This document shows, in pieces, positions 1-51,557 of a DNA stretch of 64,000 bases; within the stretch, counting starts at the first letter, position 1, and every line of letters begins with the position of its first letter. The stretch comes from Hyphomicrobiales bacterium (GTDB taxonomy: Bacteria > Pseudomonadota > Alphaproteobacteria > Rhizobiales > Rhizobiaceae). Under the pieces are notes generated by a model, which did no database searches, was not told the origin of the DNA, and worked only from the letters and a program-made list of their open reading frames with translations. Location: NCBI GenBank assembly GCA_900473175.1, contig UCKM01000028.1, positions 1 through 64,000 of the forward strand, in the 5' to 3' direction. The position numbers and the translations under genes are program-made.

Positions 1-471
1 AAGCTGCGGCAGCAGGCGGCGGACAATCATGCCCGCTTGGATCGCCTTGAAAAGCAGTTCGGTGAAGCACTTCATGCGCCACCGCGAGCGACCGACGCGC
101 CTCCGTCCATCCTGCAGCCTCAACAGTCGCCTCAGTTTACAGGAACGATCGCCGCGTCGCCTGATATCGTTCTGCCCCCAGATACAGTCCCCCGAGTCAT
201 TCTGCGCTTTGCGCGCAACCGCGATTCCGCGCGGACACGAGCGGCGACTCTGGAGCGGAGTCTGCGAGCTCAGGGTCTCGACGTCGTAAAATCCGGAGAT
301 TCACTTGCAAGCTCTCGTGCAGACAAAGTCATGTACTTTTACAAAGAAGATCGACCGAGCGCAGAGCGTATAGCGGCTGGGCTTGCGGAAGCAGCATTCA
401 TCCAGCGCCCATTTGCGGACGATGGCTCACTCCCTCCCCCAGGAACTATCGAAGTGGCAATCGGACGGTAA
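1..471 (+). CDS. Hypothetical protein, 5'-truncated by the window edge
   Basis: The frame is open from base 1 to a TAA ending at 471, so the gene begins upstream of the window. The visible 156 residues hold a Gln/Pro-rich linker (about residues 25-60) followed by a compact alpha/beta-looking C-terminal half. That half contains a run resembling the pairing of two LytR_C-type strands: 'RVILRFARN' early and 'ADKVMYFYKED' later. No catalytic motif is visible. The following OmpA-domain gene starts 33 bases downstream on the same strand, so the two are probably co-transcribed. A function cannot be assigned; a cell-envelope role is inferred only from the neighbours. Confidence 0.6.
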   Translation, partial: KLRQQAADNHARLDRLEKQFGEALHAPPRATDAPPSILQPQQSPQFTGTIAASPDIVLPPDTVPRVILRFARNRDSARTRAATLERSLRAQGLDVVKSGDSLASSRADKVMYFYKEDRPSAERIAAGLAEAAFIQRPFADDGSLPPPGTIEVAIGR

Positions 472-504
472 CTAGTAATGTAGCGTAAAACACAGGAGCC
501 TGAC

Positions 505-960
505 ATGAGCCTCAGTTGCATTGTTCGCCATCTCGCCTTTATTGTCCTGCTGGGAAGCACATCCGCTTTCGCGCAAACAAATCCGCCTTCGCCCGCGACG
601 CCGGCAAGCTCGAAACCAGAAAGTGGTGGACCGGCCCCATTGGTCATCCATTTCGGTAGCGGCAGCAGCGCAATTTCTCCCCAGGAAAGAGAAGTCCTTG
701 ATCAAGCGTCTCGCGCTTTCAACGCGGGCAAGCCGCAAGTCATGATCGTTACGGGCGGTGCCGATCGTGTCGGATCACCGGCGAAGAATCTCTCGCTTTC
801 TCAGCGCAGGGCTACTGCAGTGCTGAAAGCCTTGGTCGATCGCGGACTTCCGGTCGACCGGTTCCAGGTCCTGGCGAAAGGCGAAACGGAACTCGCAGTT
901 CCGACCGAAGAGGGTATTGCCGAAGCTGAAAACCGTCGTGTCGAGATCACTTGGCGCTAA
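505..960 (+). CDS. OmpA/MotB-domain outer-membrane or periplasmic protein
   Basis: A 151-residue protein with a signal peptide ending near 'SAFAQ' (residues 1-24), a Pro-rich spacer, and an OmpA-like peptidoglycan-binding domain over about residues 45-150. The domain shows the family features: 'VIHFGSGSSAISPQE' at its start, 'VTGGADRVGS' in place of the usual GHTD strand, 'LSQRRATAVLKALV', and the final 'NRRVEI' motif. The family binds meso-diaminopimelate in peptidoglycan. The canonical Asp of GHTD is replaced by 'GADRVG', which is common in divergent members. The gene lies four bases before a Sel1-repeat gene, so both are likely translated from one mRNA. Confidence 0.8.
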   Translation: MSLSCIVRHLAFIVLLGSTSAFAQTNPPSPATPASSKPESGGPAPLVIHFGSGSSAISPQEREVLDQASRAFNAGKPQVMIVTGGADRVGSPAKNLSLSQRRATAVLKALVDRGLPVDRFQVLAKGETELAVPTEEGIAEAENRRVEITWR

Positions 961-964
961 CGCC

Positions 965-1714
965 GTGCGCCGTTTCTCGGCGGTGGCCACGCTAGTCCTC
1001 GCGTTTGCACAGTCGGCGACGTCGGCTGGCGCAGAGGATTCGAGTGCTTTATTTCGCGAGGCGCTGCGACAAGACTTGAAGGGCGGGCCGGCGGATGCTC
1101 GGCTCGCCTTCGACATATACCGCCGTGCTGCAGAAGCCGGCTTGCCCGAAGCACAATTCAATGTCGCCATCATGCTTGACAGCGGCCGCGGCGTGTCCCC
1201 GGATGTGGCGCAAGCCGCCACATGGTACGCGCGTGCGGCCTCTCACGGCATTCGAAGAGCGGCGTATAATCTCGGCCAGCTTTACGAAGCAGGGCAGGGC
1301 GTTCCGCAAAACGTTGATCTCGCCCGTGCGTGGTTCAAAGCATCCGATCTCCCGGCTGCCCGCGCGCGCCTGACCGCCATTCGCTCTGGTGGCGCAAAGG
1401 CCGCGACGCTTTCCGCTCCTGTGCTCGTCGCGCCTGGGGATGGCGGGCTAATTGGCTCCGGCGCAAATAATGTCGAACTCGTGTGGACGGCGCGCCAGGG
1501 ACCCGAGGGGGTGCGCTTCTTTGTGGAGTTGCGCGCACTTGTGCCATCTGGTTCAAGGGAGATCTATTCCGGCTTCGTCGAAGTTTCGAGCCTGAACGTA
1601 GCTCTCTCAAGTAGTTTTAAGGGGGCCTTCGCATGGCGGGTGTTCGCCGTTGCACAAGGGAGTGGCCGCTACGCAGCCAGCAATTGGTCTTATCTGCGCA
1701 CCTCTGCCAACTGA
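965..1714 (+). CDS. Secreted Sel1-repeat (tetratricopeptide-like) protein
   Basis: Start chosen at GTG 965, four bases after the stop of the OmpA-domain gene. The open frame continues upstream to a TTG at 917, but that would overlap the neighbour. From GTG the protein is about 249 residues and begins with a hydrophobic signal peptide ending near 'TSAGA'. Two clear Sel1 repeats follow (motif types 'A..G...AQFNVAIMLDSGRGV..D' and 'AAYNLGQLYEAGQGV..N...A..WF'). The C-terminal 110 residues look like a beta-sandwich of unknown type. Sel1 proteins are protein-interaction scaffolds, often in the periplasm. The partner is probably the upstream OmpA-like protein, which is inference. Confidence 0.75.
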   Translation: MRRFSAVATLVLAFAQSATSAGAEDSSALFREALRQDLKGGPADARLAFDIYRRAAEAGLPEAQFNVAIMLDSGRGVSPDVAQAATWYARAASHGIRRAAYNLGQLYEAGQGVPQNVDLARAWFKASDLPAARARLTAIRSGGAKAATLSAPVLVAPGDGGLIGSGANNVELVWTARQGPEGVRFFVELRALVPSGSREIYSGFVEVSSLNVALSSSFKGAFAWRVFAVAQGSGRYAASNWSYLRTSAN

Positions 1715-2446
1715 CGGTCTTGTTTGTCCGCACTCAGGAGGTTGAACTCCACTCAAATGTCGATGTGAATATCCCTAGGAATACCTGGGACGGGCTTTGG
1801 TGCACGCCCGAAATCCGTCCGTCGCATGTCAACCACCGCATAGACGGCAGCTTCAAAGACCCGCGTCCGAAACGTCTGATCCGTGCACCAAAGCCGGTGT
1901 GACATGGAATCGGTAGAACGCTTCGGTCGTGTATTGATCGTCCAGAAGGTCGTTCGACGGATTTGCCCACCCCAACGCGAAGCCGAGGAGATCTGACGGT
2001 GCATTTGGCGGGCGATAACTTACGCCCACTGCAATCTTCCTGTCGATGATTCAGCCCGACCCAGCCGGCGTTCCGAGCCGGTCTGGCGATATCCATCCCT
2101 CCGTCCACCTCTCTACACCTCAGAGCTCGGTCGCCCGCTATAGTTAACAGACTGTTTCAATTGACATTTTTTCGTTATCAGAATTTATTTCGCCGTTAGC
2201 TTCTGCTTTCGGGATTCAAATTCATTGAAGTAACTACGGGCATCACCTGCATTGCCGACGACCCATGTGGAGCGCACTTTCCGGTCACCTCTATCGTTGA
2301 TGGCATAGGGTATGCCGGCCATCAGTCACAGGTATCGGCATGCCTTCCGAGGTTGTACGCTGGGTTCCGTAGTCCCCAATAAAGTGGCGGCCGATCTGGC
2401 TTTTGTACTGCAATTGCATTACATTGTTTGTACGGACGAAGGAGAT
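1715..2446. other. Gene-poor stretch, possible remnant
   Basis: No convincing gene is visible in these 730 bases. Two overlapping minus-strand frames (about 1734-2108 and 1753-2004) carry fragments such as 'RTRVFEAAVYAVVDMRR' that read like real protein but lack starts and ribosome-binding sites, so this may be a decayed gene. The last 150 bases are AT-richer and lead into the toxin-antitoxin promoter. Confidence 0.4.
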
Positions 2447-2452
2447 ATGGTG

Positions 2453-2755
2453 ATGGCAACGAACGCTTTGGTTCAGACACGAATAGATGCAGAAGTTAAG
2501 GAGCGCGCCACCGCTGTTCTGGAGGAGATGGGACTCACGGTTTCAGATGCCGTACGCATCCTTTTAACCCGTACGGCAAAAGAGGGCGCCCTGCCCCTCG
2601 AACTGATTAGTAATAGCGGCGCTTACGACGCTTGGTTTCGAGCCAAAGTACAACAAGCCCTTGACGACACACGGCCCGACGTCGAAGACGCGGAGGCGGA
2701 GGCTCATTTTGCGAAACGGCGAGCGGCCGCAGTGCGCAAGGGCGTGGCAGAATGA
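2453..2755 (+). CDS. RelB/DinJ-family antitoxin
   Basis: A 100-residue protein starting 'MATNALVQTRID', typical of RelB/DinJ antitoxins. The N-terminal ribbon-helix-helix DNA-binding region covers about residues 1-45 ('VKERATAVLEEMGLTVSDAVRILL'), and a charged, flexible toxin-neutralising tail follows. ATG 2453 is preferred over ATG 2447 because the GGAG at 2441-2444 is then eight bases away. The stop overlaps the ATG of the toxin gene (ATGA), which is typical of translationally coupled toxin-antitoxin operons. Antitoxins of this family usually autorepress their own promoter. Confidence 0.88.
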   Translation: MATNALVQTRIDAEVKERATAVLEEMGLTVSDAVRILLTRTAKEGALPLELISNSGAYDAWFRAKVQQALDDTRPDVEDAEAEAHFAKRRAAAVRKGVAE

Positions 2756-3048
2756 TGAGGCTAGTTTGGGCACAATTCGCCCTATCGGACCGTGATGACA
2801 TCTTTACCTATATTGAAACCGAAAGTCCTCGGGCCGCGGTGCATGTCGACGATCAGATCGTGGCTTCGGTACGCCGTCTTCTGGATTTTCCGGAAAGTGG
2901 AAGACCTGGTCGTGTTGCTGGGACACGTGAACTCGTAATACCGCGTACTTCTTATGTCGCCGCCTACGCCGTAACGTTGGACACGATCCGCATTTTGCGC
3001 ATCTTGCATAGCGCACAAATGTGGCCAGACGAGATCACTATTGAATAG
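2752..3048 (+). CDS. RelE/ParE-family toxin
   Basis: A 98-residue protein overlapping the antitoxin stop. It shows the RelE/ParE fold pattern: an N-terminal strand 'LVWAQFALSDRDDI', a helix pair with 'FPESGRPGRVAGTREL' and the C-terminal strands 'YVAAYAVTLDTIRILRILHSAQMWP'. The 'GRPGR..GTREL' and 'ILRILHSAQ.WP' signatures are characteristic. The toxin would be an mRNA interferase (RelE) or a gyrase poison (ParE); sequence alone does not decide which. Next to a recombinase and repABC, the pair probably stabilises the plasmid or the local insertion. Confidence 0.87.
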   Translation: MMRLVWAQFALSDRDDIFTYIETESPRAAVHVDDQIVASVRRLLDFPESGRPGRVAGTRELVIPRTSYVAAYAVTLDTIRILRILHSAQMWPDEITIE

Positions 3049-3955
3049 GCGCTATGCATCCGAGAGTCTTAACCCTCCCCTGTTGGGCTATGCTCGGGTA
3101 TCGACCGAAGACCAGGCTACTGACGCGCAGCTTGTCGAGCTTCGGGCCGCCGGCTGCGACATTATCTATCAAGAACATGGTTCGGGTGCTTCGCGGGCGC
3201 GGCCGGTGCTGGCCCGGCTTTTGCGAGAGATCAATTCGGGTGAGGTGCTGGTGGTGGTGCGGCTTGACCGCCTGGCGCGATCGGTGAGCCATCTGCTGCA
3301 GGTAATCGAACAACTCGAAGCCAAGGGCGCACATTTCCGCTCGTTGCACGACCCGATCGACACCGCGACGCCACAGGGCATGTTTTCGCTGCAGGTCTTG
3401 GGTGCCGTCGCACAGCTCGAACGGGCCTTGATTTCCGAGCGCACCAAGGCGGGGATCAAAGCGGCGAAGGCCCGCGGCAGGCTTCCCGGGAACCCTGGCT
3501 TGCGCGCCCGGCTGCCGGAAGCGATTTCGAAAGCCTCAAGGGCGCGACAACGCAGTCATCTAGCCGATCTTACCACCACCATGTCAACCTGGTTGCCAGT
3601 CGTTCAACGCATGCGCCCAGATCATCCTTGGGAAGACGTAACGCGCAGCCTCAATCGTGAAAACGACCAGCGCTGGACCGTCGATCGCCTGCGCCGTTCG
3701 GTAAAACGGCTGGCCAGCGAAGGCCTGGCTGATCCAGCACTTCTGGTCCCCTCCCCTCGCCGGTTGCCCGAGGACCGGCTGATGATGCTGATCACCGGCA
3801 TAGCCAATGCCAACCCGGATTTGAGTTTGCGCGACATTGCGCTGCAGCTTGAAGCCATGTATGAGCGCACGCCGCGCGGTTCATCGCGTTGGGCCGCCTC
3901 GTCCGTCAAGCACCTCCTCGACCGGGCGCGAAAGCTCGGCCTCGTCGGCAAATAG
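3041..3955 (+). CDS. Serine recombinase (resolvase/invertase family) with long C-terminus
   Basis: The N-terminal catalytic domain of the resolvase/invertase family covers about residues 15-155. It has the nucleophile serine in 'GYARVSTEDQ', then 'VLVVVRLDRLARS', and 'LGAVAQLERALISERTKAG' with the E-helix. The start may be TTG 3041, which overlaps the toxin stop, or the in-frame TTG 3083 just before 'GYARVS'. At up to 304 residues it is much longer than the usual 185-200. The extra part contains two more segments that look helix-turn-helix-like ('PWEDVTRSLNRENDQRWTVDRLRRS' split over two helices, and 'LSLRDIALQLEAMYERT'). It may resolve plasmid multimers or be left from a Tn3-type transposon. 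Confidence 0.85.
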   Translation: MNRRYASESLNPPLLGYARVSTEDQATDAQLVELRAAGCDIIYQEHGSGASRARPVLARLLREINSGEVLVVVRLDRLARSVSHLLQVIEQLEAKGAHFRSLHDPIDTATPQGMFSLQVLGAVAQLERALISERTKAGIKAAKARGRLPGNPGLRARLPEAISKASRARQRSHLADLTTTMSTWLPVVQRMRPDHPWEDVTRSLNRENDQRWTVDRLRRSVKRLASEGLADPALLVPSPRRLPEDRLMMLITGIANANPDLSLRDIALQLEAMYERTPRGSSRWAASSVKHLLDRARKLGLVGK

Positions 3956-3972
3956 CCGGACATTGGCATCCG

Positions 3973-5190
3973 TCACGTCGCGCTCACCAGTTGCGGGCCG
4001 ACACCATTTGCTTTCAGTGCTGCCATCAGCATCGGCCCGACGGCAAATTCCCCTGCCCTTGCCTTTTCGGTTAGCGCCCGCAGATAGCCGCCGGCCGAAT
4101 TGATGCTTTGTGCCCGCTCGAGGATACAGGCAATGACGATGGCGGTGTTCTCCTCGCCGAACACATCGAGCGCCTCCTCGTAGGCGGAGGGCGAAATACC
4201 GAGATAGCCCCTGACCTGCGCCGCCGTCGCCATCAATTCCCGCCAGGTGCCAATGCCGCTTGGCGCATAGTCGGCAATTTCCGGGCAGGCCTTCATCACC
4301 AAGCCAAGCGGATAGGTCTTCGTCGTATTGTCAGCCCTTGGTTTGATGGGTGCAGATTTTGGCCCTTGGCTGTTTCTTAAGCCGGGTTCAAGATCAGATG
4401 AAGAGTCGGTGTTTGAATTCTGTTGCTGCGGCTCAGTTTGAGACTCATTGGAGCTCAAATTCTTGGCATCTACATGGTTTTCCAACAAGATAGCCACCTC
4501 GTCGTGCAAAGTGGCCAGATCGGCAACGATCGGCTCCAGCACTGAGAGCACCGCCTGGCGCGGAATGGCCTCGACAATCGTTCGGAACCGTCTCCAGAGC
4601 GGGCCCCAGTTGCCGGGAATGTCTTCTGCGACCGCAACCGCGATCAGTTTGGCAATATCGCGCCGATGCAGCGTGATCCGCTCGCGAACGAGCTTGAGGG
4701 CCCTGGCGGCTGCCCGGACGCGCTCAGCGGCGGCCTGCAGCTCTTCCGCCCGGGCAAGGAGCGGCGCCAGCGAAAATCCGAATGCATCGGTGATCTCCCC
4801 GCCCCTGCCCTTTCTTGAGTAGCGTTTGCCGTTGGGACTGTCCTTCCGCGTGATCAGGCCGCAGTCAATGAGCGCTGCCAAATGGCGCCGCAACGTGGCG
4901 TTTGCCATACCGTGGGCCCGCATCGAAAGTTGAACGTTCGATGGAAAGACAACTAAACCGCTTTCCGCAGCTAGGTCGTCGTCGGGCAGGAACGACAGCA
5001 AGGCATTGAGCACGGCAAGGGAGCGGTCACCGACCCCAACGATTTCCCTGCCTTCACAGAGCCAGCGATAGACCTGCCATTTGTGGGCTGTCTTTCCCGC
5101 TTCGATTTCCTGCGCTTCAGCCTGTGTCTTTAATTGGCCAAGCGACATCGATCGCCGCCCAAAAGGCGTCGTTATCAAATTCCCAAGCAT
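3973..5190 (-). CDS. repC: Replication initiator RepC
   Basis: A 405-residue RepC, the replication initiator of repABC plasmids. The N-terminal region has the family-typical 'GRRSMSLGQLKTQAEA' and 'HKWQVYRWLCEGREIVGVGDRSLAVLNALLSFLP', followed by a winged-helix DNA-binding part ('MANATLRRHLAALIDCGLI'). A Ser/Gln-rich linker lies near residues 245-290, and the C-terminal domain contains 'GTWRELMATAAQVRGYLGISPSAYEEA'. In this family the origin lies inside repC itself. It is the third gene of a repA-repB-repC order on the minus strand, separated from repB by the antisense-RNA region. Its 3' end faces the serine recombinase at 18 bases. Confidence 0.95.
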   Translation of the reverse strand: MLGNLITTPFGRRSMSLGQLKTQAEAQEIEAGKTAHKWQVYRWLCEGREIVGVGDRSLAVLNALLSFLPDDDLAAESGLVVFPSNVQLSMRAHGMANATLRRHLAALIDCGLITRKDSPNGKRYSRKGRGGEITDAFGFSLAPLLARAEELQAAAERVRAAARALKLVRERITLHRRDIAKLIAVAVAEDIPGNWGPLWRRFRTIVEAIPRQAVLSVLEPIVADLATLHDEVAILLENHVDAKNLSSNESQTEPQQQNSNTDSSSDLEPGLRNSQGPKSAPIKPRADNTTKTYPLGLVMKACPEIADYAPSGIGTWRELMATAAQVRGYLGISPSAYEEALDVFGEENTAIVIACILERAQSINSAGGYLRALTEKARAGEFAVGPMLMAALKANGVGPQLVSAT

Positions 5191-5346
5191 CTCCGTTCAC
5201 CTTTTCTAAAGGCAAAAGACTTCTGCTCGCCAAAGCGACGCCAATCATGCTTGACAGTGATTCGAGGAAATGCGATTCTCAGTCTGCGAAAACTATGAGA
5301 GAGGCTTCCACGACGGCGACGTTTGGGGGCCTTTTTCTTTTGCGGT
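5191..5346. promoter_or_regulatory. repB-repC intergenic region (copy control and incompatibility)
   Basis: These 156 bases separate repB from repC, the place where repABC plasmids encode a small counter-transcribed RNA that represses repC. On the plus strand a TTGACA hexamer (5251-5256) is followed about 17 bases later by a poor -10 (around 5274-5279). A terminator-like hairpin with a T-run follows. The rep mRNA crosses this region on the minus strand. Confidence 0.75.
5281..5340 (+). ncRNA. Counter-transcribed RNA (ctRNA, incA-type) antisense to the repC leader
   Basis: Direct evidence is a plus-strand promoter-like TTGACA at 5251-5256 and a rho-independent terminator. The stem is 8 base pairs, GGCTTCCA (5303-5310) with TGGGGGCC (5324-5331), including two G-U pairs. 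The loop is 13 bases and the run TTTTTCTTTT follows. Position, orientation opposite to repABC, and size match the ctRNA of repABC plasmids, which blocks repC translation and determines incompatibility. The exact 5' end is estimated. Confidence 0.78.
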
Positions 5347-38078: not shown

Positions 38079-41000
38079 ATGAACATGGAACTCTCGCGGC
38101 GCCAATTTCTTGGAGCGGCCGGCGCGGGTGTTGCGGGCACGGCGCTTGGAGCCTTTGGTTTTGGCGAAGTCGAGACGGCACACGCCGAAGCGATCCGCGC
38201 TTTCAAACTCGTGAACACCACTGAAACCCGGAACACCTGTCCGTATTGCTCCGTTGCATGCGGCATCATCATGTACTCGATGGGTGATCTGAAAAAGGGC
38301 GAACAGGCCAAAATCATTCATATCGAGGGCGACACCGACCATCCGACAAATCGCGGAACACTTTGCCCGAAGGGCGCGGCGCTGCTCGATTTCGTCAAAG
38401 CAGAAACGCGCTTGAAATATCCGATGATCCGCAAGCCCGGGTCCGACAAATTCGAGCGCATCGCCTGGAAGGACGCGCTTGATCGCATCGCCCGGTTGAT
38501 GAAGGACGATCGTGACGGCAATTTCGTCCAGAAAAACAACGACGGCGTGACAGTGAACCGATGGACGACGACGGGGTTCCTCGCCGCCTCCGCTACGACG
38601 AACGAAACGGCGTTTGTGACCTATAAGGTCGTTCGCAGCGCCGGAATGCTGGTATTCGATAACCAGGCACGTGTCTGACACGGCCCAACGGTGTCCAGTT
38701 TGGGCCCAACATTTGGCCGTGGTGCAATGACCAACTCCTGGACCGACATCAAGAACACGGATCTTGTTGTCATCATGGGAGGCAATGCTGCCGAAGCGCA
38801 CCCTTGCGGGTTCAAATGGGTCACGGAGGCGAAGGCCAACCGTGGCGCCAGGCTGATTGTCGTCGATCCGCGCTTTACGCGGTCTGCATCGGTTGCCGAT
38901 CTATACGCTCCGATCCGTCAAGGTACGGATATCGCCTTCCTGCTGGGGGTGATGAATTACTGCATCCAGAACGACAAGGTTCATTGGGACTATGTCAAGG
39001 CATTCACCAACGCCAGCTACATCATCAAGGACGGCTTCGAATATAAGGACGGCCTGTTCACCGGTTACAACGAGACAAAGCGCGACTATGACAAGTCGAG
39101 CTGGGACTATGTAATCGGTGATGATGGTTATGCCCAGGTGGACGACACGCTGACACACCCGCGTAGTGTGTGGAACCTGTTGAAAGCACACGTCTCTGTC
39201 TACACACCGGAAATGGTCGAGCGCATCTGTGGCACGCCAAAGGAGAAGTTTCTGAAGGTGGCCGAGATGATCTCGGAATGCGCGTCTCCCACCAAGACAA
39301 TGACGTCCATGTATGCGCTTGGCTGGACACAGCATTCGAAAGGCTCGCAGAACATCCGTTCGATGGCAATGCTGCAGCTCATTCTGGGCAATATCGGCGT
39401 GCGTGGCGGCGGCATGAATGCGCTACGCGGTCACTCCAATATTCAGGGCCTCACGGATGTCGGCCTGATGTCGAACCTCATACCGGGCTATATGACACTG
39501 CCGACCGAGAAGGAGGTGGATTTCGAGAGCTATATGTCGACACGTGCCTTCAAGCCGCTCCGGCCCAACCAGATGAGTTACTGGCAAAACTACAGGAAAT
39601 TCTTTGTCAGTTTCCTGAAGGCAATGTGGGGCCCGGCGGCGGCGCCGGAAAATCATTTTGCCTATGACTGGCTGCCGAAGCTGGACGTGCCGGGTTACGA
39701 TATCCTGCGTGCCTTCGAGCTCATGAATCAAGGCAAGATGGCGGGTTATATCTGCCAGGGCTTCAATCCGCTGCTTGCAGCTCCGAACCGGAAGAAAGTC
39801 ACCGAATCCCTGTCGAAGCTAAAATTCCTGGTCACGATGGATCCGCTGGACACGGAAACGGCGCGGTTCTGGGAAAATCACGGCGAGTTCAATGATGTCG
39901 ATTCCTCGCAGATCCAGACGGAGGTCATTCAACTGCCCTCCACCTGTTTTGCGGAAGATGAGGGATCGCTCACCAATTCCGGGCGCTGGCTGCAGTGGCA
40001 TTGGCCTGGTGGTACGCCCCCCGGTGAAGCGATGACGGATAATTGGATCATGGCTCAGATTCACATCCGCCTGAAGGAGCTCTATCGCAAGGAAGGCGGA
40101 GCATTCCCCGATCCGATCGTCAACCTGAATTGGGACTATGCGGATCCGGGTGAGCCGACTGCGGAAGAACTTGCCAAGGAAATCAATGGCAAGGCGTATG
40201 CCAACGTCTACGACCCGACCGATGCGACCAAGGTGGTGGTTGAAGCCGGCAAGCGGGTGCCAAGCTTCGCTGCGCTGCGTGACGATGGCTCGACCTCCTG
40301 CGGCTGCTGGATCTACTCAGGTTGCTTCAACGAGAACGGCAACAACATGGCCCGGCGCGATACGTCGGACCCCGGCGAGACCGGCGCTTATTCCAAGTGG
40401 GCGTTCTCATGGCCGGTCAACCGCCGCATTCTCTATAACCGGGCTTCGGCAGACTTGAACGGCAAGGCATGGGATCCGAGCCGCAAGCTGATCGAATGGG
40501 ACGGGCAGAAGTGGTCGGGCTATGATGTGCCGGATATTGCGCCGACAGCCAAGCCATCGGACGTCGGGCCATTCATCATGAATCCGGAAGGGGTGTCACG
40601 CCTCTTTGTCCGTGGCATGATGCGCGACGGACCATTTCCGGCGCACTACGAACCGTTCGAGTCGCCGGTCGCCAATCTCGTTGCACCGAATGTGCGTGGC
40701 AATCCTGCGGCTCGTGTGTTCAAGGGCGATTTCGAGCAGTTTGCCAAGCCCGCGTCGGAAGAATTCCCCTATGCGGCGACATCTTACCGTCTTACCGAAC
40801 ACTTCCACTATTGGACCAAGCATGTCTGGGTGAATGCCGTCCTGCAGCCGGAATTCTTCGTCGAGATATCGGAAGAACTCGCGAAGGAGAAAGGCATCGT
40901 CGGGGGCGGTTGGGTGCGTGTATGGTCCAAACGCGGATCGATTAGAGCCAAGGCGGTTGTAACCAAACGCATCAAACCTTTGATCTGCGATGGTAAAGCG

Positions 41001-41165
41001 GTTCATGTGGTGGGTATTCCACTGCACTGGGGTTTCACCGGGGGTGCGAAGAAGGGCTTCGGCCCGAACTCGCTGACACCTTTCGTCGGTGACGCCAATA
41101 TTGAGACGCCTGAATACAAGGCGTTCCTGGTCAATATCGAGCCCATCGCCGGGCCGGTGGCATAG
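38079..41165 (+). CDS. fdoG: Formate dehydrogenase-O/N type alpha subunit, selenoprotein with in-frame UGA
   Basis: A 1028-residue catalytic subunit of respiratory formate dehydrogenase, read through a TGA at 38676-38678 (residue 200) as selenocysteine. The Tat signal is 'LSRRQFLGAA' (residues 5-14), so it is exported folded. The [4Fe-4S] cysteines are Cys54, Cys57, Cys61 and Cys96 ('CPYCSVACG'...'LCPKG'). The Sec site reads 'NQARV-U-HGPTVSSLGPTF', matching the active site of FdnG/FdoG. The bis-MGD molybdopterin domains follow. It oxidises formate in the periplasm and passes electrons to FdoH. Conceptual translation without Sec decoding would split it into two ORFs (38079-38678 and 38691 onward). 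ATG 38079 follows GGGAGG. Confidence 0.97.
38676..38721 (+). promoter_or_regulatory. Bacterial SECIS element in fdoG
   Basis: Immediately after the UGA, CACGGCC (38679-38685) pairs perfectly with GGCCGTG (38715-38721). An inner stem GTCC/GGGC closes an AGTTT loop. Place, size and sequence (TGACACGGCCCAACGG) follow the E. coli fdhF/fdnG SECIS hairpin that SelB recognises. Confidence 0.88.
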
Positions 41166-42877: not shown

Positions 42878-43795
42878 ATGAGTCGCAAAAGCGCGGTCAT
42901 GCCGGATCCAACGGCGATTGGAAATGTTTCGTCACCTCCCTTTGCGCGCCTCCCTGATCCCGCTTCGCTTTTTTCGGTCAGGGCGGCACGTCTGCGCCAA
43001 TTGGCTGGAATCAGTAATCTTGCACCTTATCTGAGGTTTCTTGCCGAACTTGTGCAAACCCAGCACGATATCCAGACTGACTTGCCTCTCCCGGAAAGTC
43101 CGGATGCAAAGGCGATCGCGCGGGCCCGCGAGTTCGAAATGCCGCCGCTCGACCGGGGCCAGATAGAGGTCGACAAGGCCGTCAGCTCTATATTCGATCG
43201 CCTGTTTGCCGCCGCTGCCGCAATCGAGAAGCCGGTTGCAGCGACCGAAGCGCTTGCGCACGTGACCGCAGCCGATCCTGCCGAACGCCTTGCCATGGCG
43301 CATGCAGTATTTTCCAATACATTGCCCGCAGATGCGATTGCCGAGCATGTTTTTGTGTGGGCAGGGCTTCAGGTGCATTTTGCCCGGCTCGCATCGGTTC
43401 TCGATGTGGCGGCGCTGGCACCGGTGGCCGATGGCGTTTGCCCCGTCTGCGGCGCCATACCGGTATCGACGATGGTCGTTGGCTGGCCCGGTTCGCACGG
43501 CGCGCGGTTTTGTTCATGTTCCCTGTGTGACACGCTCTGGCACTATGTCCGTATTAAATGTGTGCTTTGCGGTTCCACCAAGGGGATCGGCTATAAGGAG
43601 ATCGACGGGCAAGGCGGGGCCATCAAGGCCGAGACCTGCGACGAATGTCACGGCTGGTCGAAGATTCTGTACCAGGACAAGCTGCCGGATGCCGACCCGG
43701 TCGCTGACGACGTGGCAAGTCTCAGCCTGGACATCCTGATGCGAGAAGGGCCCTATCATCGAGGCGGTTTTTCCCCGCTGCTTGCCGGTTTTTAG
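42878..43795 (+). CDS. fdhE: Formate dehydrogenase accessory protein FdhE
   Basis: A 305-residue cytoplasmic maturation factor needed for active respiratory formate dehydrogenase. The C-terminal half holds four CxxC-type motifs of two zinc-ribbon or rubredoxin-like folds: '[10 protein letters not shown]', '[20 protein letters not shown]' and 'CDECHGWSK'. The final '[20 protein letters not shown]' is also typical. It sits between the structural genes and selA, eight bases before selA. Confidence 0.95.
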
Positions 43796-43803
43796 GAACG
43801 ACA

Positions 43804-45228
43804 ATGGATACCAACGCCAGTCTGCGCCGCATTCCTTCGGTGGATGAGCTTCTGAAGTCGGCATCGGCGGGCGCTGCAATCGAGCGCTTTGGACGACCCG
43901 CCGTCACTGAAGCGTTGCGGGCTGCAGTCGCCGATTTGCGTAACGAGGTCCGTAAAGGCCGCAATCTTCCCGCTCGGGAGAACATCATTGCTGCCGCGCT
44001 TGCCAGACTGGACGCGGGCGATCAGTCGACGCTCCGGCCCCTTTTCAATCTGACCGGCACCGTGCTGCACACCAATCTCGGCCGCGCATTGCTTGCACAA
44101 GCAGCAATTGACGCGGCAACGGCGGCGATGCGCGAGGCTGTCTCTCTCGAATTCGCCCTGGAGAGCGGCAAGCGCGGCGAACGCGATGACCATGTGCGCG
44201 CACTCATTTGCGAACTCACCGGGGCGGAAGATGCGACCATTGTCAATAATAACGCCGCGGCTGTCCTTCTGGTGCTGAACAGTCTGGCGTCGGGCAAGGA
44301 AGCTATTGTCTCACGCGGTGAGCTGATCGAAATCGGCGGAGCCTTTCGCATGCCGGATATCATGGCGCGTGCCGGTGTCCGTCTTGTCGAGGTCGGAACT
44401 ACAAATCGTACCCATGCAAGGGATTACAGCAATGCCGCTGGTCCCGACACGGGCCTTATATTGAAAGTCCATACCTCCAATTACCGCATCGAGGGCTTCA
44501 CCAAGGAAGTGGGCGCGCGCGAACTGGCCGGCATCGCTCGCAAAAACGGTGTACCCCTCGTCAACGACCTCGGTTCAGGCACATTGACGGATCTCACCCG
44601 TTTCGGGATTGCCCACGAACCGACTGTGCGCGAGGCGATCAGTGAGGGTGCAGACATCGTGACCTTCTCCGGCGACAAGCTGCTCGGTGGGCCGCAAACC
44701 GGGTTCATCGTGGGACGCAAGGCGCTCATCGAGACGATCAACAGGAATCCGATGAAACGCGCGCTGCGCGTCGACAAGATTCGACTCGCAGCGTTGGAAG
44801 CGACATTGCGACTCTATCGCGATCCGGATCGCCTGAGCGAGCGCCTGCCCACCATGCGGTTGCTTACCCGGTCACGAGGCGACATCGACGCGCAAGCGCA
44901 ACGATTGGCGCCGGCCGTGGAACATGCGCTGGAGGGTGCTTTCAGAGTCTCCATTATTGCCTGCGACAGCCAAATCGGTTCGGGGGCCTTGCCGCTTTCC
45001 ACCGTACCGAGCGCTGGCTTGGCGCTGATACCGATCGAACGCAGTGGCCGCGTGCTCGCCGAGTTGGCAGCGGCGCTCAGGCAACTCCCGGTGCCGGTCA
45101 TCGGCCGTATCGAGCGCGGATCGCTGGTGCTGGATCTGCGCTGTCTTGAGGACGAAGCAGGTTTTGTCGCCAATTTTGCCGGTGTCATTCCACACTTCAA
45201 AGGGGGCTTCGATGATGAGCCTTCTTAG
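43804..45228 (+). CDS. selA: L-seryl-tRNA(Sec) selenium transferase SelA
   Basis: A 474-residue PLP enzyme that converts Ser-tRNA-Sec to Sec-tRNA-Sec with selenophosphate. It begins '[11 protein letters not shown]', and has '[17 protein letters not shown]', '[13 protein letters not shown]' and '[19 protein letters not shown]'. The PLP lysine is Lys292 in '[17 protein letters not shown]'. Length is normal. The 3' end overlaps the Sel1-repeat gene by 14-17 bases. Confidence 0.97.
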
Positions 45229-46033
45229 CCGGTTCTCGCGAAAACAGGCAGAGAACGATGCGTCCCTCGAGGGGAAGATGGCGATTGCGCTGGCGGCCGC
45301 AACGAAAGGCGATTACGCAACGGCGCTCTCCATATGGGAACCTCTGGCGCGAGCCGGAAATGCGCGGGCTCAAAACAATATCGGCGCGTGTTTTGCTGGC
45401 GAATTGGGTGTTGCCAAGGATGCCCATCTCGCTCGTGACTGGCTGACATTGTCGTCGGAAGCCGGTGACCCGGTCGGGCAGCGCAATCTTGCATCTCTCT
45501 TGTTCAAGGGTGAGGGGATCGAACCGGACCATGAACGGGCACTCGCGCTTTATCGCGAGGCGGCGGAAAAAGGCGATGGCGAGGCTCAGGACATGTTGAG
45601 CTGGATGCTGCTGGAAGGCGAAATCGCCGGGCCCGATCCTGCAGAAGCACGTCGATGGGCGCTTGCTGCCGCGCAAAACGGCTCTGCCGCTTCGATGACA
45701 CGCTTAGGAATGCTTTTTCACAACGCTATTGGCGTCCCACGGGATCCGGTCGAGGCGGCTCGCTGGTGGCGGCTCGGCGCAAACGCCGGCGATGCCGATG
45801 GACAGGCGATGCTTGGCGCTGCCTATCACCTGGGCAACGGTGTCGCTCGCGATTCCGTCGAGGCGTTCGCATGGTTGTTGAGAGCGCACGAGGGCGGCAG
45901 CAGTCTGGCCATACCTTTCTTCGCCGTCGTGCGTGCCACACTCGATGCTGACCAGCTCGCCCAAGCTGAACGCCTTGCTGCAATATCCCTGCCCGATACA
46001 TCGGCCCCGTCCTCAAAGGCAGGCAAGCCATGA
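45215..46033 (+). CDS. Sel1-repeat protein embedded between selA and selB
   Basis: A 272-residue protein starting ATG 45215 (or 45212) after AAGGGGG, inside the selA 3' end. It consists of five or six Sel1-type repeats ('[21 protein letters not shown]', '[20 protein letters not shown]', '[14 protein letters not shown]', '[20 protein letters not shown]', '[20 protein letters not shown]'). It has no signal peptide, so it is cytoplasmic. Both ends overlap Sec genes (four-base overlap with selB), so it is translated with them. The role is not established; a scaffold for Sec or formate dehydrogenase assembly is inference. Confidence 0.88.
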
Positions 46034-48111
46034 TCATCGGTACCGCAGGGCATATCGATCATGGCAAGACATCGCTGGTCAAGGCACTGACCAATGTCGA
46101 TACCGATCGGCTGAAAGAGGAAAAAGCTCGCGGCATTTCGATCGATCTCGGCTTTGCCTATATGCCAGTGGATGGGGCTGAGACACTTGGCTTTGTCGAT
46201 GTGCCGGGACATGAGAAGTTCATCCACACCATGCTTGCCGGTTCCAGCGGCATCGATTTCGTTCTGCTGGTGATCGCCGCCGATGATGGTCTGATGCCGC
46301 AGACGCACGAACACCTCGCCATCATCGATCTTCTTGGTGTTGAACGTGGCGTCGTCGCACTCACTAAGGCCGATCTCGTGCAGGAAGACCGGCTAACCGA
46401 GGTCGAAGCTGCAATCCGAAACGAACTCGCCGGGACGGCGCTTTGCGATGCGCCGATTATCGCAGTTTCGACGGTCTCGGGCCAGGGCATCGCAGCGTTG
46501 CGCGATGGGATCGCCACTGCTGCCCGCCGATTCACCCGGCGCCAGGCAACGGGTCGCTTTCGGCTGGCGGTGGATCGATCATTCACCATTCAAGGGACCG
46601 GGACGGTCGTGACCGGAACTGTGCTTTCGGGGACGGTGGCGGTTGAAGATCACGTGATTGTAGGCCCATCAGGCCTTGCGGCCCGTATCCGCTCAATTCA
46701 TGCCCAGAACCAGCCGAGTGAAAATGGCCGTGCCGGCGATCGTTGTGCCCTCAACCTCGTCGGCGACGGCATAACAAAGGCGGCAATCAAACGCGGTGAT
46801 ATGGTGCTTGAGCGAAGCCTGCACGCTCCGACGAGTCGAATTGACGCGACACTGCGCGTGCTAAGCTCCGAACGTAAGCCGATCGGTCACTGGTTTCCGG
46901 TACGGCTTCATCATGCATCGACCGAGGTTGGCGCTCGCATCGTGTTGCTAACTGATGAGCCAGTCGCGCCCGGAACGGCTACCCTCGTACAACTTGTACT
47001 GGACCAGCCAATTGCTGCGGCTGTGGGCGATCGTTACATCGTTCGCGACACGTCGGCCCGGCGCACAATCGGCGGCGGCGGCTTTCTGGATTTGCGCGCT
47101 CCGGCCCGCAGACGCCGCACACCGGAGCGAAGGGCACAGCTCGAAGCGCACGTACTCATGGATGCGGAGCGCGCAATTGAGGCACTGCTTGCAGCACCGC
47201 CATTTTATCTCGATGTCACAGCCTTCGCCCGCGACAGGGTCTTGTCGGTGGCGCATGCCGGCACGCTGGCAGAATTGTCAGGCGCGGTACAGTTGCCCCT
47301 GAATGCTTCTGTTGTGGCCATATCGCCCGGGCACTGGCGCAAATTCCGGCAAAGTCTTCTGGACCGGCTCGGAACTTTCCATGCTGGCAATCCGGATCTG
47401 ATGGGGATTGGCATTGAACGGCTGCGGACACAGCTTGAACCGCGCCTGCCGGTCCCTGCGTTTCGAGCAGCCTTGCAAAGGCTTGCCGGCGCAGGGGAGA
47501 TTGCGGTTGACGGAGCCTGGGTGCGGCTCGCCGGTCATGAAGTTACGATGGCGCCGGCTGACGAGCGGCTTTGGAACATGATCGAGCCGTTGCTGGGCAG
47601 AGCAGAGCGGTTCCGTCCTCCGCGCGTTCGCGACATCGCTGAATTGCTCGCGGTTCCGGAGTCGCAGGTGCGGCGGTTGCTGAAGCTGGGTAGCCGCATG
47701 GGCAAGGTGCATGAGGTGGCACACGACCATTTCTTCCTGCGCGATACGGTTGCAAAAATGGTTGCGATCGTCGCCGAGCTAAGCTCAGCCGCAGAAAATG
47801 GCTGGTTCACCGCCGCGCAGTTTCGCGACCGCGTTGATAATGGTCGTAAGGTTGCAATCCAGATTCTCGATTTCTTCGATCGCCACAGTGTCACTGTACG
47901 TCGTGGCGATCTCCGCCGCATCAACTGGAACCGTCTGAACCTCTTTGCCAGTTTGACGGCCAGCGAAAGAGTTGTTTCTGGAGGAGAATCGTCCCCGGTG
48001 GGGCGTCCGGACTTCAAATCCGGGAGGGGCCGAAAGACGGTCTTTGGTGGGTTCGACTCCCACTCTCTTCCGCCATTGCCAGGCCAGCCCGGTTCCGGAA
48101 GCTCTCGATGA
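46030..48111 (+). CDS. selB: Selenocysteine-specific elongation factor SelB
   Basis: A GTPase that brings Sec-tRNA-Sec to UGA codons next to SECIS elements. The N-terminal EF-Tu-like part has 'GTAGHIDHGKTSLVKAL', 'GISIDLGFAYM', 'DVPGHEKFIHTML' and 'ALTKADL'. The C-terminal winged-helix domains bind SECIS ('RPPRVRDIAELLAVPESQV' and 'AAQFRDRVDNGRKVAIQILD'). The family would normally end shortly after 'VRRGDLRRINWNRLNLF' (about 47945). Here no stop occurs: the frame runs on through the complete tRNA-Sec gene to TGA 48109-48111, adding about 50 residues of tRNA-encoded tail. The full frame is 693 residues. Confidence 0.95.
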   Translation: MIIGTAGHIDHGKTSLVKALTNVDTDRLKEEKARGISIDLGFAYMPVDGAETLGFVDVPGHEKFIHTMLAGSSGIDFVLLVIAADDGLMPQTHEHLAIIDLLGVERGVVALTKADLVQEDRLTEVEAAIRNELAGTALCDAPIIAVSTVSGQGIAALRDGIATAARRFTRRQATGRFRLAVDRSFTIQGTGTVVTGTVLSGTVAVEDHVIVGPSGLAARIRSIHAQNQPSENGRAGDRCALNLVGDGITKAAIKRGDMVLERSLHAPTSRIDATLRVLSSERKPIGHWFPVRLHHASTEVGARIVLLTDEPVAPGTATLVQLVLDQPIAAAVGDRYIVRDTSARRTIGGGGFLDLRAPARRRRTPERRAQLEAHVLMDAERAIEALLAAPPFYLDVTAFARDRVLSVAHAGTLAELSGAVQLPLNASVVAISPGHWRKFRQSLLDRLGTFHAGNPDLMGIGIERLRTQLEPRLPVPAFRAALQRLAGAGEIAVDGAWVRLAGHEVTMAPADERLWNMIEPLLGRAERFRPPRVRDIAELLAVPESQVRRLLKLGSRMGKVHEVAHDHFFLRDTVAKMVAIVAELSSAAENGWFTAAQFRDRVDNGRKVAIQILDFFDRHSVTVRRGDLRRINWNRLNLFASLTASERVVSGGESSPVGRPDFKSGRGRKTVFGGFDSHSLPPLPGQPGSGSSR
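47980..48075 (+). tRNA. selC: tRNA-Sec (anticodon TCA)
   Basis: 96 bases with an encoded CCA end. The eight-base-pair acceptor stem is GGAGGAGA (47980-47987) with TCTCTTCC (48064-48071, one G-U pair), then G and CCA (48073-48075). The anticodon arm is CCGGA-cttcaaa-TCCGG (48007-48023) with anticodon TCA at 48014-48016. A long variable arm and the T-loop GTTCGACTC follow. These are hallmarks of bacterial tRNA-Sec. The whole gene lies inside the selB reading frame. Confidence 0.95.
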
Positions 48112-48602
48112 TGACGGCAACCACGTATATCGAGGGATTACAGCGGGCAGCCGACGAGGCGCAATCGATGGAAGCCGCTTACCGGCTGGAGGCGGCTGCC
48201 CGGATAGCAACACTCGAACGCGAACGTGCCTTCGCTTTTCGTCGGATGAATTTGATGCGGGCTATCGCCGAAGTTGCAATGCCGCAAGCGGATGACAGTA
48301 GCGATCCGGATGAACGAAGCGGCGAGGAAATTGCCGTCGCCCGCGCGCTTGCCCTGTTACGCATCAAACTGGGCTGGTCGTCGGACAGTGTAACGCGAGA
48401 TGCAACGCTTGCGAAGTTCACGCCTGTGTCTGTTGCGCTTTATCGTGCGTCGAACGGTGAAGGTCAAAATACACCGGATGGCACCCCAGACATTGGCGAG
48501 GCCCTTGGTCGTTTTGAGGACTGGTACGAGAAGGCTCATGCCGTTTCGTTCTGGATGCTTTTTGAGAATCCCATGCCAGACACCCCACGCGTCGACTTCT
48601 GA
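48108..48602 (+). CDS. Unknown protein at the end of the Sec operon
   Basis: A 164-residue soluble protein whose ATGA start overlaps the selB stop by four bases. It has a charged helical N-terminal half ('MEAAYRLEAAARIATLERER', 'AFAFRRMNLMRAIAEVAM'), an acidic middle, 'ARALALLRIKLGWS', and a C-terminal 'FEDWYEKAHAVSFWMLFENP' segment. There is no signal peptide and no cysteine. I do not recognise the family. Overlap with selB and downstream position suggest a role linked to selenocysteine or formate dehydrogenase, which is inference. Confidence 0.8.
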   Translation: MMTATTYIEGLQRAADEAQSMEAAYRLEAAARIATLERERAFAFRRMNLMRAIAEVAMPQADDSSDPDERSGEEIAVARALALLRIKLGWSSDSVTRDATLAKFTPVSVALYRASNGEGQNTPDGTPDIGEALGRFEDWYEKAHAVSFWMLFENPMPDTPRVDF

Positions 48603-48811
48603 GCTAGAGCATTTTCTGGATTCTGTCGCAAATTCACATGGGGACATAAGTCAAGGTGCCATAAGGGGTCTCCGGGGATGGTTCGGATCCAAGGTCTGAG
48701 CCCATCGCGAGAACGTGGATCATGCCAGGTTCAAACGGTACCGTCGCAAACTTTGACGCGATTCGCGAGGCGGCATTGTTCAGCCCATTTCATGCAGCCA
48801 GGATGTTGAAC
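48603..48811. other. Sec operon end / IS6 junction
   Basis: About 210 bases without a gene. No clear rho-independent terminator is seen after the operon. The left end of the IS6 element follows at 48812. Confidence 0.4.
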
Positions 48812-49621
48812 GGTGCTATCACATTGTTTTTGGTTTAAGGAATTGTCGATATTGATCGTGGGCATGAGCCAGCCCATCGCAAATTATAAGAATCACCGTT
48901 TTCCGCCAGAGATCATCGCTCGTGCCGTCTGGCTCTACTACCGGTTTCCGCTCAGCTTGCGCCACGTTGAGGAAATGCTGCTTGAGCGCGGTATTGTCGT
49001 TTCTTACGAGACGATCCGCCGCTGGGGCAGAAGACATGGTCCCGACTATGCCCGCCGCATTACCGGAAAGCAGCCGTTGAAGAGCGATATCTGGCACCTC
49101 GACGAGGTTGTGGTCCGCATCAAAGGCAAGAAATTCTGGCTGTGGCGCGCTGTCGATCAGGATGGCTATGTCCTTGATGAAATCGTGCAGAACCGCAGGA
49201 ATACCAAGGCGGCCAGGCGTTTGTTGACGCGTCTTTTGAAGAAACAGGGCATGGTGCCAAAGCGGATAGTGACTGACAAACTGCGCTCTTATGGAGCAGC
49301 AAAACGTCAGGTCATGCCCAATGTCGAGCATCGCTCGCACAAAGGCTTGAACAATCGCGCTGAGAACTCCCATGTACCGTTTCGAAAGCGGGAGCGAATG
49401 CGACAGGGATTTCGATCCGTAGGCAACTTGCAATGCTTCGGTTCGCTGTTCTCTGCCGTCCGCAATCGCTTCGTTCCAGATCGTACCAAACACACAGCTA
49501 ACCAAATCCGCAATCACAGACTACAAGCCATCGCTGAGTGGAAGTCCGTAAGCGGACAGATCGTCTGAAACTGTCGTCACGAGCTCTTACGCGACCATAC
49601 CTTAAACAAGGTGACATCGCC
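48812..49621 (+). mobile_element. IS6-family insertion sequence, complete copy
   Basis: An 810-base element bounded by imperfect terminal repeats: left GGTGCTATCACATTGTTT, right (read inward) GGCGATGTCACCTTGTTT. It contains one intact transposase gene. The eight bases on each side do not match (TGTTGAAC against TCTCCGCC), so there is no target duplication, consistent with IS-mediated rearrangement or cointegrate resolution. Confidence 0.85.
48864..49568 (+). CDS. IS6-family transposase
   Basis: A 234-residue DDE transposase. It starts 'MSQPIANYKNHRFPPEIIAR', followed by a helix-turn-helix with 'LSLRHVEEMLLERGIVVSYE' and 'TIRRWGRRHG'. The catalytic residues are Asp in 'WHLDEVVVRIKGK', Asp in 'IVTDKLRSYGAAK', and Glu in 'NRAENSHVPFRKRER'. 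Length is standard and the frame is intact, so the element may still be active. Confidence 0.93.
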   Translation: MSQPIANYKNHRFPPEIIARAVWLYYRFPLSLRHVEEMLLERGIVVSYETIRRWGRRHGPDYARRITGKQPLKSDIWHLDEVVVRIKGKKFWLWRAVDQDGYVLDEIVQNRRNTKAARRLLTRLLKKQGMVPKRIVTDKLRSYGAAKRQVMPNVEHRSHKGLNNRAENSHVPFRKRERMRQGFRSVGNLQCFGSLFSAVRNRFVPDRTKHTANQIRNHRLQAIAEWKSVSGQIV

Positions 49622-49796: not shown

Positions 49797-50176
49797 GCCG
49801 GATTATCCTGCCTACCCATAAACTCCCGGTTAAGTTTACAGTGCCGTCCTGCCTGCTCCCGCCGACAATGCCTGAGACGCCGCACGCTGACTCGGAACGT
49901 ACCGGTGGTGAGGGATCTGTCAGCGGCATTCCTCGCGTTGTCTCGCGGTCAATTCGAATAAGGCTCTGAGAGCTGTAAGGGTATGAATGCACGGTTTGGG
50001 TGGGCGCAGTCGTTCCGCTGTCATCAACATCCAGAATGAGCCCCGCCATGCTGGCCCACAAGGGGCGCCGTCTCATAGCTGCTTTGGAGAAAATCGGACG
50101 ATACTCTCGCCAACATGTTCTCGATATGGGAGTTCTCGCTGAGGTGCGACTTTGGCGCATCGGCAAGCTAACCTGT
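49797..50176. other. Stretch between insertion sequences
   Basis: About 380 bases with no supportable gene. It probably includes the end of the second IS6 element and the right end of the IS30 element; I could not define terminal repeats. Confidence 0.35.
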
Positions 50177-51188
50177 TCATCGCATCCGCGCCATGACCTT
50201 TGCCGGAACACTTCGGCCGGCGTCCTGAAGCCGAGGCATTTGCGCGGCGTCGTGTTGAGCTGGTCGCAGACGCGGCGCAGTTCGCTATCGCTGACGGCGA
50301 GCGGGTCAACCTCGCTCGAAAGCCATCTTCGGGCCCGGCAGGTGGTGTTCTCGACAGTGCCTTTCTGCCCGGGCGACTGCGGATCACAGAACCAGGTCTG
50401 CGTGCCAAGTCCGGCCTGGAGATAGGGCCAGTCGGTGAATTCGGTGCCACGGTCGAAGGTGATTGGCGGCGGGCCGTTGCGGGCAGGGCCTCCAGCGTGC
50501 GGATCAGCCGCTCCATGATCGGCCGCGACTGCCGGTCATTGTTGCGCAGAAACACGGTAAAGCGGCTCACTCGCTCGACCAGTGAGGTGGCTTCACCGAA
50601 CTTCTTCCTGAACTGCATCAGATCGCACTCCCAATGCCCAAACTGCTGGCGCTCACGCACAATGTCCGGCCGATGCAAAATGCTCAGATGCGGACTGAAA
50701 CGGCGGCCATGGCGACGCCGGGCATGCCGCGGCCGGCGTCGCGCTCGGCGTTCCGGCAGGTGATGCCACAGCTTGATGGCCTGGCCATCCTTCGAATAGG
50801 CAAACCGGTAGATTGTCTCGTGACAGACCGTCATGCCATGCCGTCCGCCTTCCAGCTTCAGACAGCCGGCGACTTGCTCGGGCGACCAGCCATGGCGAAT
50901 CCGCTCGATAATCGCCTCGCGCAGTTGCGGCAACCGCACCAGCTTGCGCCGATTGCCCCGCCGATCCTTTGACTTCGTATCGGCGATCGGACCGTAATAA
51001 CCAGCCAGTTCAAGCATCTCGGGATCATCGAAGCGGTTGCGCTTCAGTTCGCGAAAAACCGTTGAGCGATGCCGTCCGAGTTTCTCGGCAATAACGTCGA
51101 CGCTGATCTTCGCAGCGTGCCAGCGTTCGATCTTGCGGCGTTCGTCGAGCGTGATTTGGGAGTAGGTGCGCCGAAACGGTTGATCCAT
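50177..51188 (-). pseudogene. IS30-family transposase, frameshifted
   Basis: The gene starts ATG 51188 ('MDQPFRRTYSQITLDERRKI'). It has the IS30 helix-turn-helix ('VIAEKLGRHRSTVFRELKRN'), 'GWSPEQVAGCLKLEG', and the DDE core beginning 'GHWECDLMQFRKKFGEATSL'. Near 50480 the frame is lost: the expected continuation 'ITFDRGTEFTDWPYL' and 'VENTTCRARRWLS' is found one frame over, running on to 'NTTPRKCLGFRTPAEVF'. A possible second shift precedes the end near 50177. The element is probably inactive, unless programmed frameshifting occurs. Confidence 0.85.
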
Positions 51189-51557
51189 GGCGATTCCTTT
51201 GTTGCGATAAGCCATTGTTATCGCTACAAAGTCGCGCTTCGAAATAGACCATTTGTGCTTCAAAAGCTGCATAACAGGAATTATGGAACCCACCGCCCGG
51301 AAATGCCGAAACATAAATGGTGGGGCTGCTTGGTGCGGACAACTAAGGGTATCGGGAAAACCGGCCCGGTTAAAGATGAGTGGGAGGATAAACTCACGCA
51401 TGCAGCGAATTGACTCACAAATGGCACGGAAGTAACTTCCATGATATCGATAAACGATATCGCATAGCGATATTGCTGGCGCTTGGTGGATGGCATTTGT
51501 TCCTCATCCATATATTAGCTACCAAGCGCGCATGCCCGGCACAGGGAGGATTATGCA
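51189..51557. promoter_or_regulatory. IS30 end and VOC-gene upstream region
   Basis: No gene. The left part should hold an IS30 terminal repeat, which I could not define. The right part contains the two overlapping palindromes described separately. Confidence 0.45.
51443..51473. promoter_or_regulatory. Two overlapping palindromes, candidate PadR operator of the VOC gene
   Basis: GATATCG-ataaa-CGATATC (51443-51461) and ATATCGC-ata-GCGATAT (51457-51473) are perfect inverted repeats that overlap. Their arms match the palindrome upstream of the padR-like gene. They lie about 85 bases before the VOC gene. Confidence 0.7.

Follow-up and report, generated by a model that had tools for sequence, protein, structure and literature searches.

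The selB reading frame through a nested tRNA-Sec gene looks selected and may couple the next ORF to selB

Introduction

The selB gene examined here, which lies in a 64,000-nucleotide stretch of DNA from a member of the Hyphomicrobiales (“the window”; GenBank assembly GCA_900473175.1, contig UCKM01000028.1), has a reading frame that passes through an entire tRNA-Sec gene and stops on the start codon of the next ORF. Comparison with other SelB loci indicates that this frame looks to be under selection, and suggests a stronger evolutionary hold on the reading frame than on the protein tail that it encodes. The fuller conclusion, which is about evenly balanced between holding and failing, is that ribosomes routinely translate a functional tRNA gene, that the frame is selected mainly to bring them to the next start and not for the peptide, and that an uncharacterised, predicted-helical protein is thereby coupled to the choice between SelB and tRNA-Sec.

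The nested selB-selC arrangement is already described in work published in 2021, and what is added here is a quantitative test of selection on the frame. In that work (Mukai 2021, Int J Mol Sci 22:4605, PMC8124441), selB genes that enclose selC were found across diverse members of the Rhizobiales and in some further Alphaproteobacteria, the laboratory organism Azorhizobium caulinodans being among the carriers named; the stop of such a selB was noted often to overlap the start of the following ORF, and by the paper's own statement this was the first such case in bacteria. The paper also reported that S. meliloti pSymA keeps a selC remnant in selB, which was attributed to a transposon. Its proposal was that tRNA processing generates a nonstop selB mRNA, with SelB and tRNA-Sec as alternative products; the antagonism between translation and tRNA processing, in which processing represses full-length SelB, was put forward as a hypothesis, and the model includes a leader-less downstream mRNA piece (PMC8124441). 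A 2022 review restates this account (PMC9312934), and a 2026 review has it in its reference list (PMC13188914). No experimental follow-up or test of the 2021 work stood out in the literature searched.

Results

Structure of the locus

The features of the selenium cluster in the window are as follows.

38079..41165, + strand: ORF of 1028 codons with one in-frame TGA and a SECIS_3 match at 38673-38731; taken as fdoG
42878..43795, + strand: fdhE, within the selenium cluster
43804..45228, + strand: selA (Pfam SelA, 4.5e-165)
45212..46033, + strand: Sel1-repeat protein gene (Pfam); its TGA overlaps the selB ATG (ATGA)
46030..48111, + strand: selB, 693 codons, with a C-terminal extension read through tRNA-Sec (TIGR00475, Pfam SelB domains)
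47947..47979, + strand: spacer, 11 codons linking ...RLNLF to the tRNA
47980..48075, + strand: tRNA-Sec gene (selC), 96 nt including CCA; equals selB codons 651-682 (ARAGORN, Rfam)
48076..48108, + strand: trailer, the 11 codons that separate the tRNA from the stop, with a weak Shine-Dalgarno-like GGAAG for the next ORF
48108..48111, + strand: ATGA stop/start overlap, selB TGA at 48109-48111 and next-ORF ATG at 48108
48108..48602, + strand: downstream ORF (family f1), 164 aa, predicted helical; no known family or fold matched

The name fdoG, for a selenoprotein formate dehydrogenase, was inferred from gene context alone. The identity of selB is clear from the profile TIGR00475, which matches residues 1-630 with 410.1 bits against a cut-off of 242.25; the Pfam SelB-wing_3 domain also ends at residue 630, and no recognised SelB domain lies beyond it. 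The tRNA-Sec gene was located by ARAGORN at 47980-48075, with anticodon TCA and on the same strand as selB, and by the Rfam model RF01852 at 47980-48071, with 76.2 bits against a gathering score of 47. It begins on a codon boundary, being preceded by 650 selB codons and then occupying exactly 32, and its translation in the selB frame is GGESSPVGRPDFKSGRGRKTVFGGFDSHSLPP, with GGA (Gly) as the first codon and CCA (Pro) as the last.

The frame 46030-48111 contains no stop codon earlier than 48109, so that the original prediction of a selB frame open across the whole tRNA-Sec gene, with its stop inside an ATGA, was confirmed by the ORF list, ARAGORN and Rfam. That prediction had also proposed a tail of roughly 50 residues encoded by the tRNA. 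The tail past ...RLNLF exists and has 54 residues, only 32 of which come from the tRNA, the other 22 being divided equally between the spacer and the trailer.

A further suggestion, that it is meaningful for selB to end in the very codon that SelB reinterprets, was not borne out. Recoding of the terminal UGA by SelB is not supported, since no SECIS family appeared among the seven Rfam matches up to E 10 in 47900-48300 (a search with Rfam models only), and since the stop codon varies among the 45 nested genes that share the window's codon phase (TGA in 37, TAA in 5, TAG in 3). The match at 38673-38731 is the sole SECIS match above gathering in the window.

Directly past the selenium cluster lies an ORF for a DDE_Tnp_IS240 transposase (48813-49568), and just beyond the cluster there is also an ORF with an HTH_38 domain (50073-51401), which we take to be IS30-like. 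Rfam matches to ctRNA_p42d and the S-element at 5188-5343 suggest a plasmid replicon, presumably of the repABC type.

The sample of SelB loci

SelB loci were drawn from whole-genome samples of the order, class, family and genus, from a scan of named genome contigs (the best 80 of 586) and from plasmids (12 of 486 matching plasmid records). Matching genomes that were distant or fragmentary were left out, 6 of 54 in one whole-genome sample and 2 of 48 in the family sample. Loci L001-L008 and L119, the window's own copy, were excluded before the set of 219 loci was formed, and removal of four duplicates gave 215 distinct loci. These comprise 46 nested loci, 6 partial loci in which the selB stop falls inside the tRNA, 82 “before” loci in which it falls ahead of the tRNA, 69 with no tRNA-Sec on the locus, 11 with tRNA-Sec elsewhere on the locus, and one at a contig end that was left unclassified. 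Because the loci from whole-genome searches carry a flank of about 1.5 kb, membership of the group of 69 does not mean that tRNA-Sec is absent from the genome.

In the window's genus, SelB is found in 9 of 20 genomes, the window's own included, and all nine loci are nested, in the same phase and with ATGA; in this count the Phyllobacterium zundukense plasmid locus L149 stands in for the genus-mate L191, which duplicates it over the 480 bases compared, and from which the window probably belongs to Phyllobacterium. A sequencing error that happened to open the frame, which the original prediction had named as a way for it to fail, is therefore unlikely.

The PLSDB gene tables for two nested loci, L149 and L156 (a Terrarubrum flagellatum plasmid), list selA and the downstream ORF and do not list selB. 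Annotation may be losing nested selB genes, for which this is only a hint, the PLSDB table being incomplete by design.

Conservation of the reading frame

An open frame in a single sequence proves little, because 54 random codons of the same composition are open in 28% of trials, a share that rises to 59% when the actual tRNA stays in position. The openness of the tRNA frame was also rejected as evidence by itself, since many tRNA-Sec genes that are not nested are open too: in 88 such loci, the three frames are open in 62 (frame 0), 76 and 64 cases. The evidence comes instead from comparing genomes. The tRNA is in phase 0 in 45 of the 46 nested loci, the exception being L208, and a phase based on the anticodon gives the same result. 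Other phases occur in L208 and, with the anticodon as anchor, in 2 of the 6 partial loci. The tRNA is 96 nt long in all 45 phase-0 nested loci, compared with 50 of the 82 “before” loci.

Changes in phase and in length were counted on a SelB tree of 117 rows, all of them 47% or more identical to the SelB of the window. Measured to the anticodon, the 46 nested rows, L208 included, show one phase change in at least 22 length changes, while the 35 “before” rows in the tree show 12 in 25; nested and partial rows taken together show 2 in 26. An earlier count, which was anchored on the ARAGORN tRNA start and omitted L208, gave 0 phase changes in 20 length changes against 13 in 24 for the “before” rows, the zero among the 45 phase-0 rows being true by the choice of rows. 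The contrast between nested and “before” loci thus persists in weaker form with L208 and the anticodon anchor.

The contrast is not forced by stop codons. Simulated deletions in the spacer leave the frame open through the tRNA at a mean of 89% of positions for 1-nt deletions and 62% for 2-nt deletions, so that only about 0.40 of the surviving changes would be expected to keep the phase. On that expectation, 20 or more of 21 keeping it has p about 1e-7, and the comparison of 1 in 21 with 13 in 24 gives a Fisher p of about 4e-4; both values are nominal, since the event counts are parsimony minima, the anchors differ between counts and the sample is a subset of the matching loci. Given that simulated frameshifts so often remain open, it is the frame itself that appears to be selected.

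The downstream ORF

In 30 of the 45 phase-0 nested loci the selB stop has bases in common with the start codon of an ORF from either of two families, f1 in 25 cases and f2 in 5; the two families are unrelated (no BLASTP match between them at 1e-3). Only starts that share bases with the stop were counted as coupled; longer overlaps, which are possible in L160 and L198, fall outside the count. The same overlap is found in 0 of 82 “before” loci, 1 of 6 partial loci, 0 of 6 loci with only a tRNA remnant, 0 of 10 loci with tRNA-Sec elsewhere, 0 of 1 nested locus in phase 2 and 1 of 64 other loci without tRNA-Sec. An f1 or f2 ORF lies downstream without such an overlap in 8 of the 82 “before” loci. 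Of the 15 phase-0 nested loci without such coupling, 3 have an f1 ORF nearby that does not overlap, and the other 12 contain no ORF of either family.

A Shine-Dalgarno match of at least 3 nt precedes 33 of 33 overlapping starts, counted for ORFs of any length, compared with about 65% of shuffled upstream stretches from the 45 loci. Of 394 genomes in the taxonomic family of the window, 18 carry an f1 ORF; all of these but genome G984 (17 of 18) are among the 48 that have SelB.

The window's downstream ORF, the f1 ORFs of L039, L047 and L149 and the f2 ORF of L043 gave no Pfam match above the cut-off; the window's ORF also gave no match in NCBIfam and none in a PDB sequence search up to E 0.1. 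Its predicted structure is helical (mean pLDDT 79.9, from a 5-row alignment), and a fold search with it returned 55 matches up to E 10, none of them at E <= 0.001. Family f2 is probably the ORF2 of the published account, because ORF2 was placed after selB in Roseomonas mucosa (Mukai 2021, PMC8124441) and, in L160, a plasmid of R. mucosa, the ORF behind selB belongs to f2; f1 is then probably ORF1 of that account.

The spacer and trailer

Among the 45 phase-0 nested loci the shortest spacer has 6 codons and the longest 31, and the lengths differ by multiples of three nucleotides. Substitutions in the spacer number 209, 149 and 220 at codon positions 1, 2 and 3 (592 codons, 42 non-independent pairs), so that the first and third positions are substituted to a similar degree and the second about 30% less. 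The codon-position composition of the spacer was checked for a coding signature and is not coding-like, with GC1/2/3 of 0.61/0.53/0.56 as against 0.74/0.48/0.75 in the selB body. In the trailer a codon-phase structure is present but unusual, with a GC2 of 0.74, which may reflect Ser, Gly, Pro and Arg codons together with the start signal of the next ORF. Judged from these patterns, the spacer peptide looks weakly constrained at most; some constraint on the peptide is possible, since the trailer has codon-phase structure and the spacer has fewer substitutions at position 2.

Loci with a tRNA remnant

Six loci that carry only a remnant of the tRNA inside selB were chosen by eye from the junction comparison. 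These six loci, and the 11 of 215 with tRNA-Sec elsewhere on the locus, speak against the idea that nesting protects selB and tRNA-Sec from separation.

Homology to the tRNA breaks off at roughly one shared position of the anticodon loop in L155/L167, L159 and L183, and extends further in L181 and L045. Each of pSymA, L155, G842 and G1035 has an intact tRNA-Sec about 2 to 4.5 kb downstream, G841 has one on another contig, and none was found for L045. In pSymA, L155 and G842, the D-arm of the intact tRNA-Sec is unlike that of the remnant, which would fit the delivery of a new 5' half by an integrating element. The loci behind these observations include L155 (4972-7155), L234 from pSymA (94-4712), L236 from G842 and L235 from G1035. 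In two of the remnant genomes an f1 ORF sits just downstream of the intact tRNA-Sec, apart from selB (G1035 C1:334372-334995 and G841 C30:356444-357040).

Discussion

The explanation that accounts best for these observations, and which we consider fairly likely, is that ribosomes reading on through the tRNA link the next ORF to selB, and that this translation competes with processing of the tRNA. The selC gene would then lie inside the translated part of a selA-sel1-selB operon. Ribosomes would finish SelB, continue over the spacer, the 32 codons of tRNA-Sec and the trailer, and stop at the UGA that overlaps the next AUG, where they would reinitiate, so that translational coupling of the next ORF to selB would run across the tRNA. 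The same transcript would have to be cut by RNase P and 3' processing to release the tRNA, which would sever the selB mRNA ahead of its stop; the yield of each transcript would therefore be either tRNA-Sec or full-length SelB together with the downstream protein. After processing, the downstream piece would carry a leader of about 32 nt with the weak Shine-Dalgarno-like GGAAG, and the “leader-less” element of the published model therefore need not hold here. A search for a separate tRNA promoter found 0 sigma-70-like sites in 47500-48800, which is weak evidence, since the search covered promoters of the sigma-70 type only.

The original prediction that ribosomes translating selB pass over the tRNA is probably correct, because the frame looks selected and is linked to the stop/start overlap with the next ORF; its overall interpretation is partly supported. 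Where it suggested that tRNA processing may be coupled to SelB translation, Mukai 2021 proposes antagonism. We conclude from the comparative sequence evidence that selection appears to preserve the frame as a means of bringing ribosomes to the next start. The 15 nested loci that have no coupled ORF speak most strongly against this conclusion; their phase may have been kept through common ancestry.

The strongest alternative, which we nevertheless regard as unlikely, is that the overlap serves mainly as a switch, in which processing of the nested tRNA destroys the selB mRNA and keeps SelB low relative to tRNA-Sec (Mukai 2021), with the coupling to the next ORF as a by-product. Such a switch follows from the anatomy of the locus, is the published model and is compatible with the explanation preferred here; it requires no fixed phase, however, and yet 45 of 46 nested loci share one phase, the frame is tied to the downstream start in 30 of 45 nested loci, and selB stops ahead of a nearby tRNA-Sec in 82 of 215 loci.

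It is improbable that the tail peptide is functional in itself, for example in binding tRNA-Sec or regulating SelB. The constant phase makes the tRNA-encoded peptide similar among nested loci, the six remnant loci retain the 5' part of the tRNA in frame, and both the somewhat lower substitution at spacer position 2 and the codon-phase composition of the trailer are what such a function could produce; but spacer positions 1 and 3 change alike, the spacer length ranges over 6-31 codons, conservation within the tRNA stretch would be expected from the tRNA by itself, and many relatives, namely the 82 “before” loci, have no tail.

A chance origin, in which selB lost its stop and ran on through a GC-rich tRNA-Sec that is stop-free in most frames, is disfavoured and very improbable, since the high openness of random codons (28%) and of frame 0 in non-nested tRNAs (62 of 88), and the resemblance of L208 and L205 to such cases, are outweighed by the rarity of phase changes (1 in 22 or more changes of length, compared with 12 in 25) and by the coupling to two ORF families.

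The locus is a rare described case in which one stretch serves both as an mRNA coding frame and as a tRNA gene, and in which the tRNA is the one carried by the encoded protein. If translation competes with processing of the tRNA, then the ratio of SelB to tRNA-Sec would be set on one transcript. The published prediction also gains a measurable signature: a frame that is kept, a spacer peptide that is nearly free to vary, and a next start that is coupled.

Comparison with known systems

An ATGA overlap of stop and start is a familiar form of translational coupling in bacterial operons, one that Mukai 2021 also cites. The overlap between selB and the next ORF is of this kind, as is the sel1-selB junction of the window, with the difference that coupling here must cross a structured tRNA which is also excised from the same transcript. 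A tRNA gene in sense orientation within a protein-coding gene is likewise found in Armadillidium mitochondria, where tRNA-Lys is nested in cox1 (Doublet 2015, as cited in PMC8124441); as far as that citation describes it, this system differs from selB-selC in being mitochondrial and in that the protein does not handle the nested tRNA.

From the nested selB-selC systems of Mukai 2021 the present locus differs not in kind. The entire tRNA-Sec lies in the selB ORF in sense orientation with a length of 96 nt, its first codon is GGA, the selB stop and the start of the following ORF overlap, and the context is fdoGHI-selAB with a Sel1-like gene in Rhizobiales, as in the published cases. The differences lie in the little constraint found here on the spacer peptide, in the processed downstream piece, which here would not be leaderless, and in the statistical test of frame conservation, which the 2021 text does not contain and the present analysis supplies.
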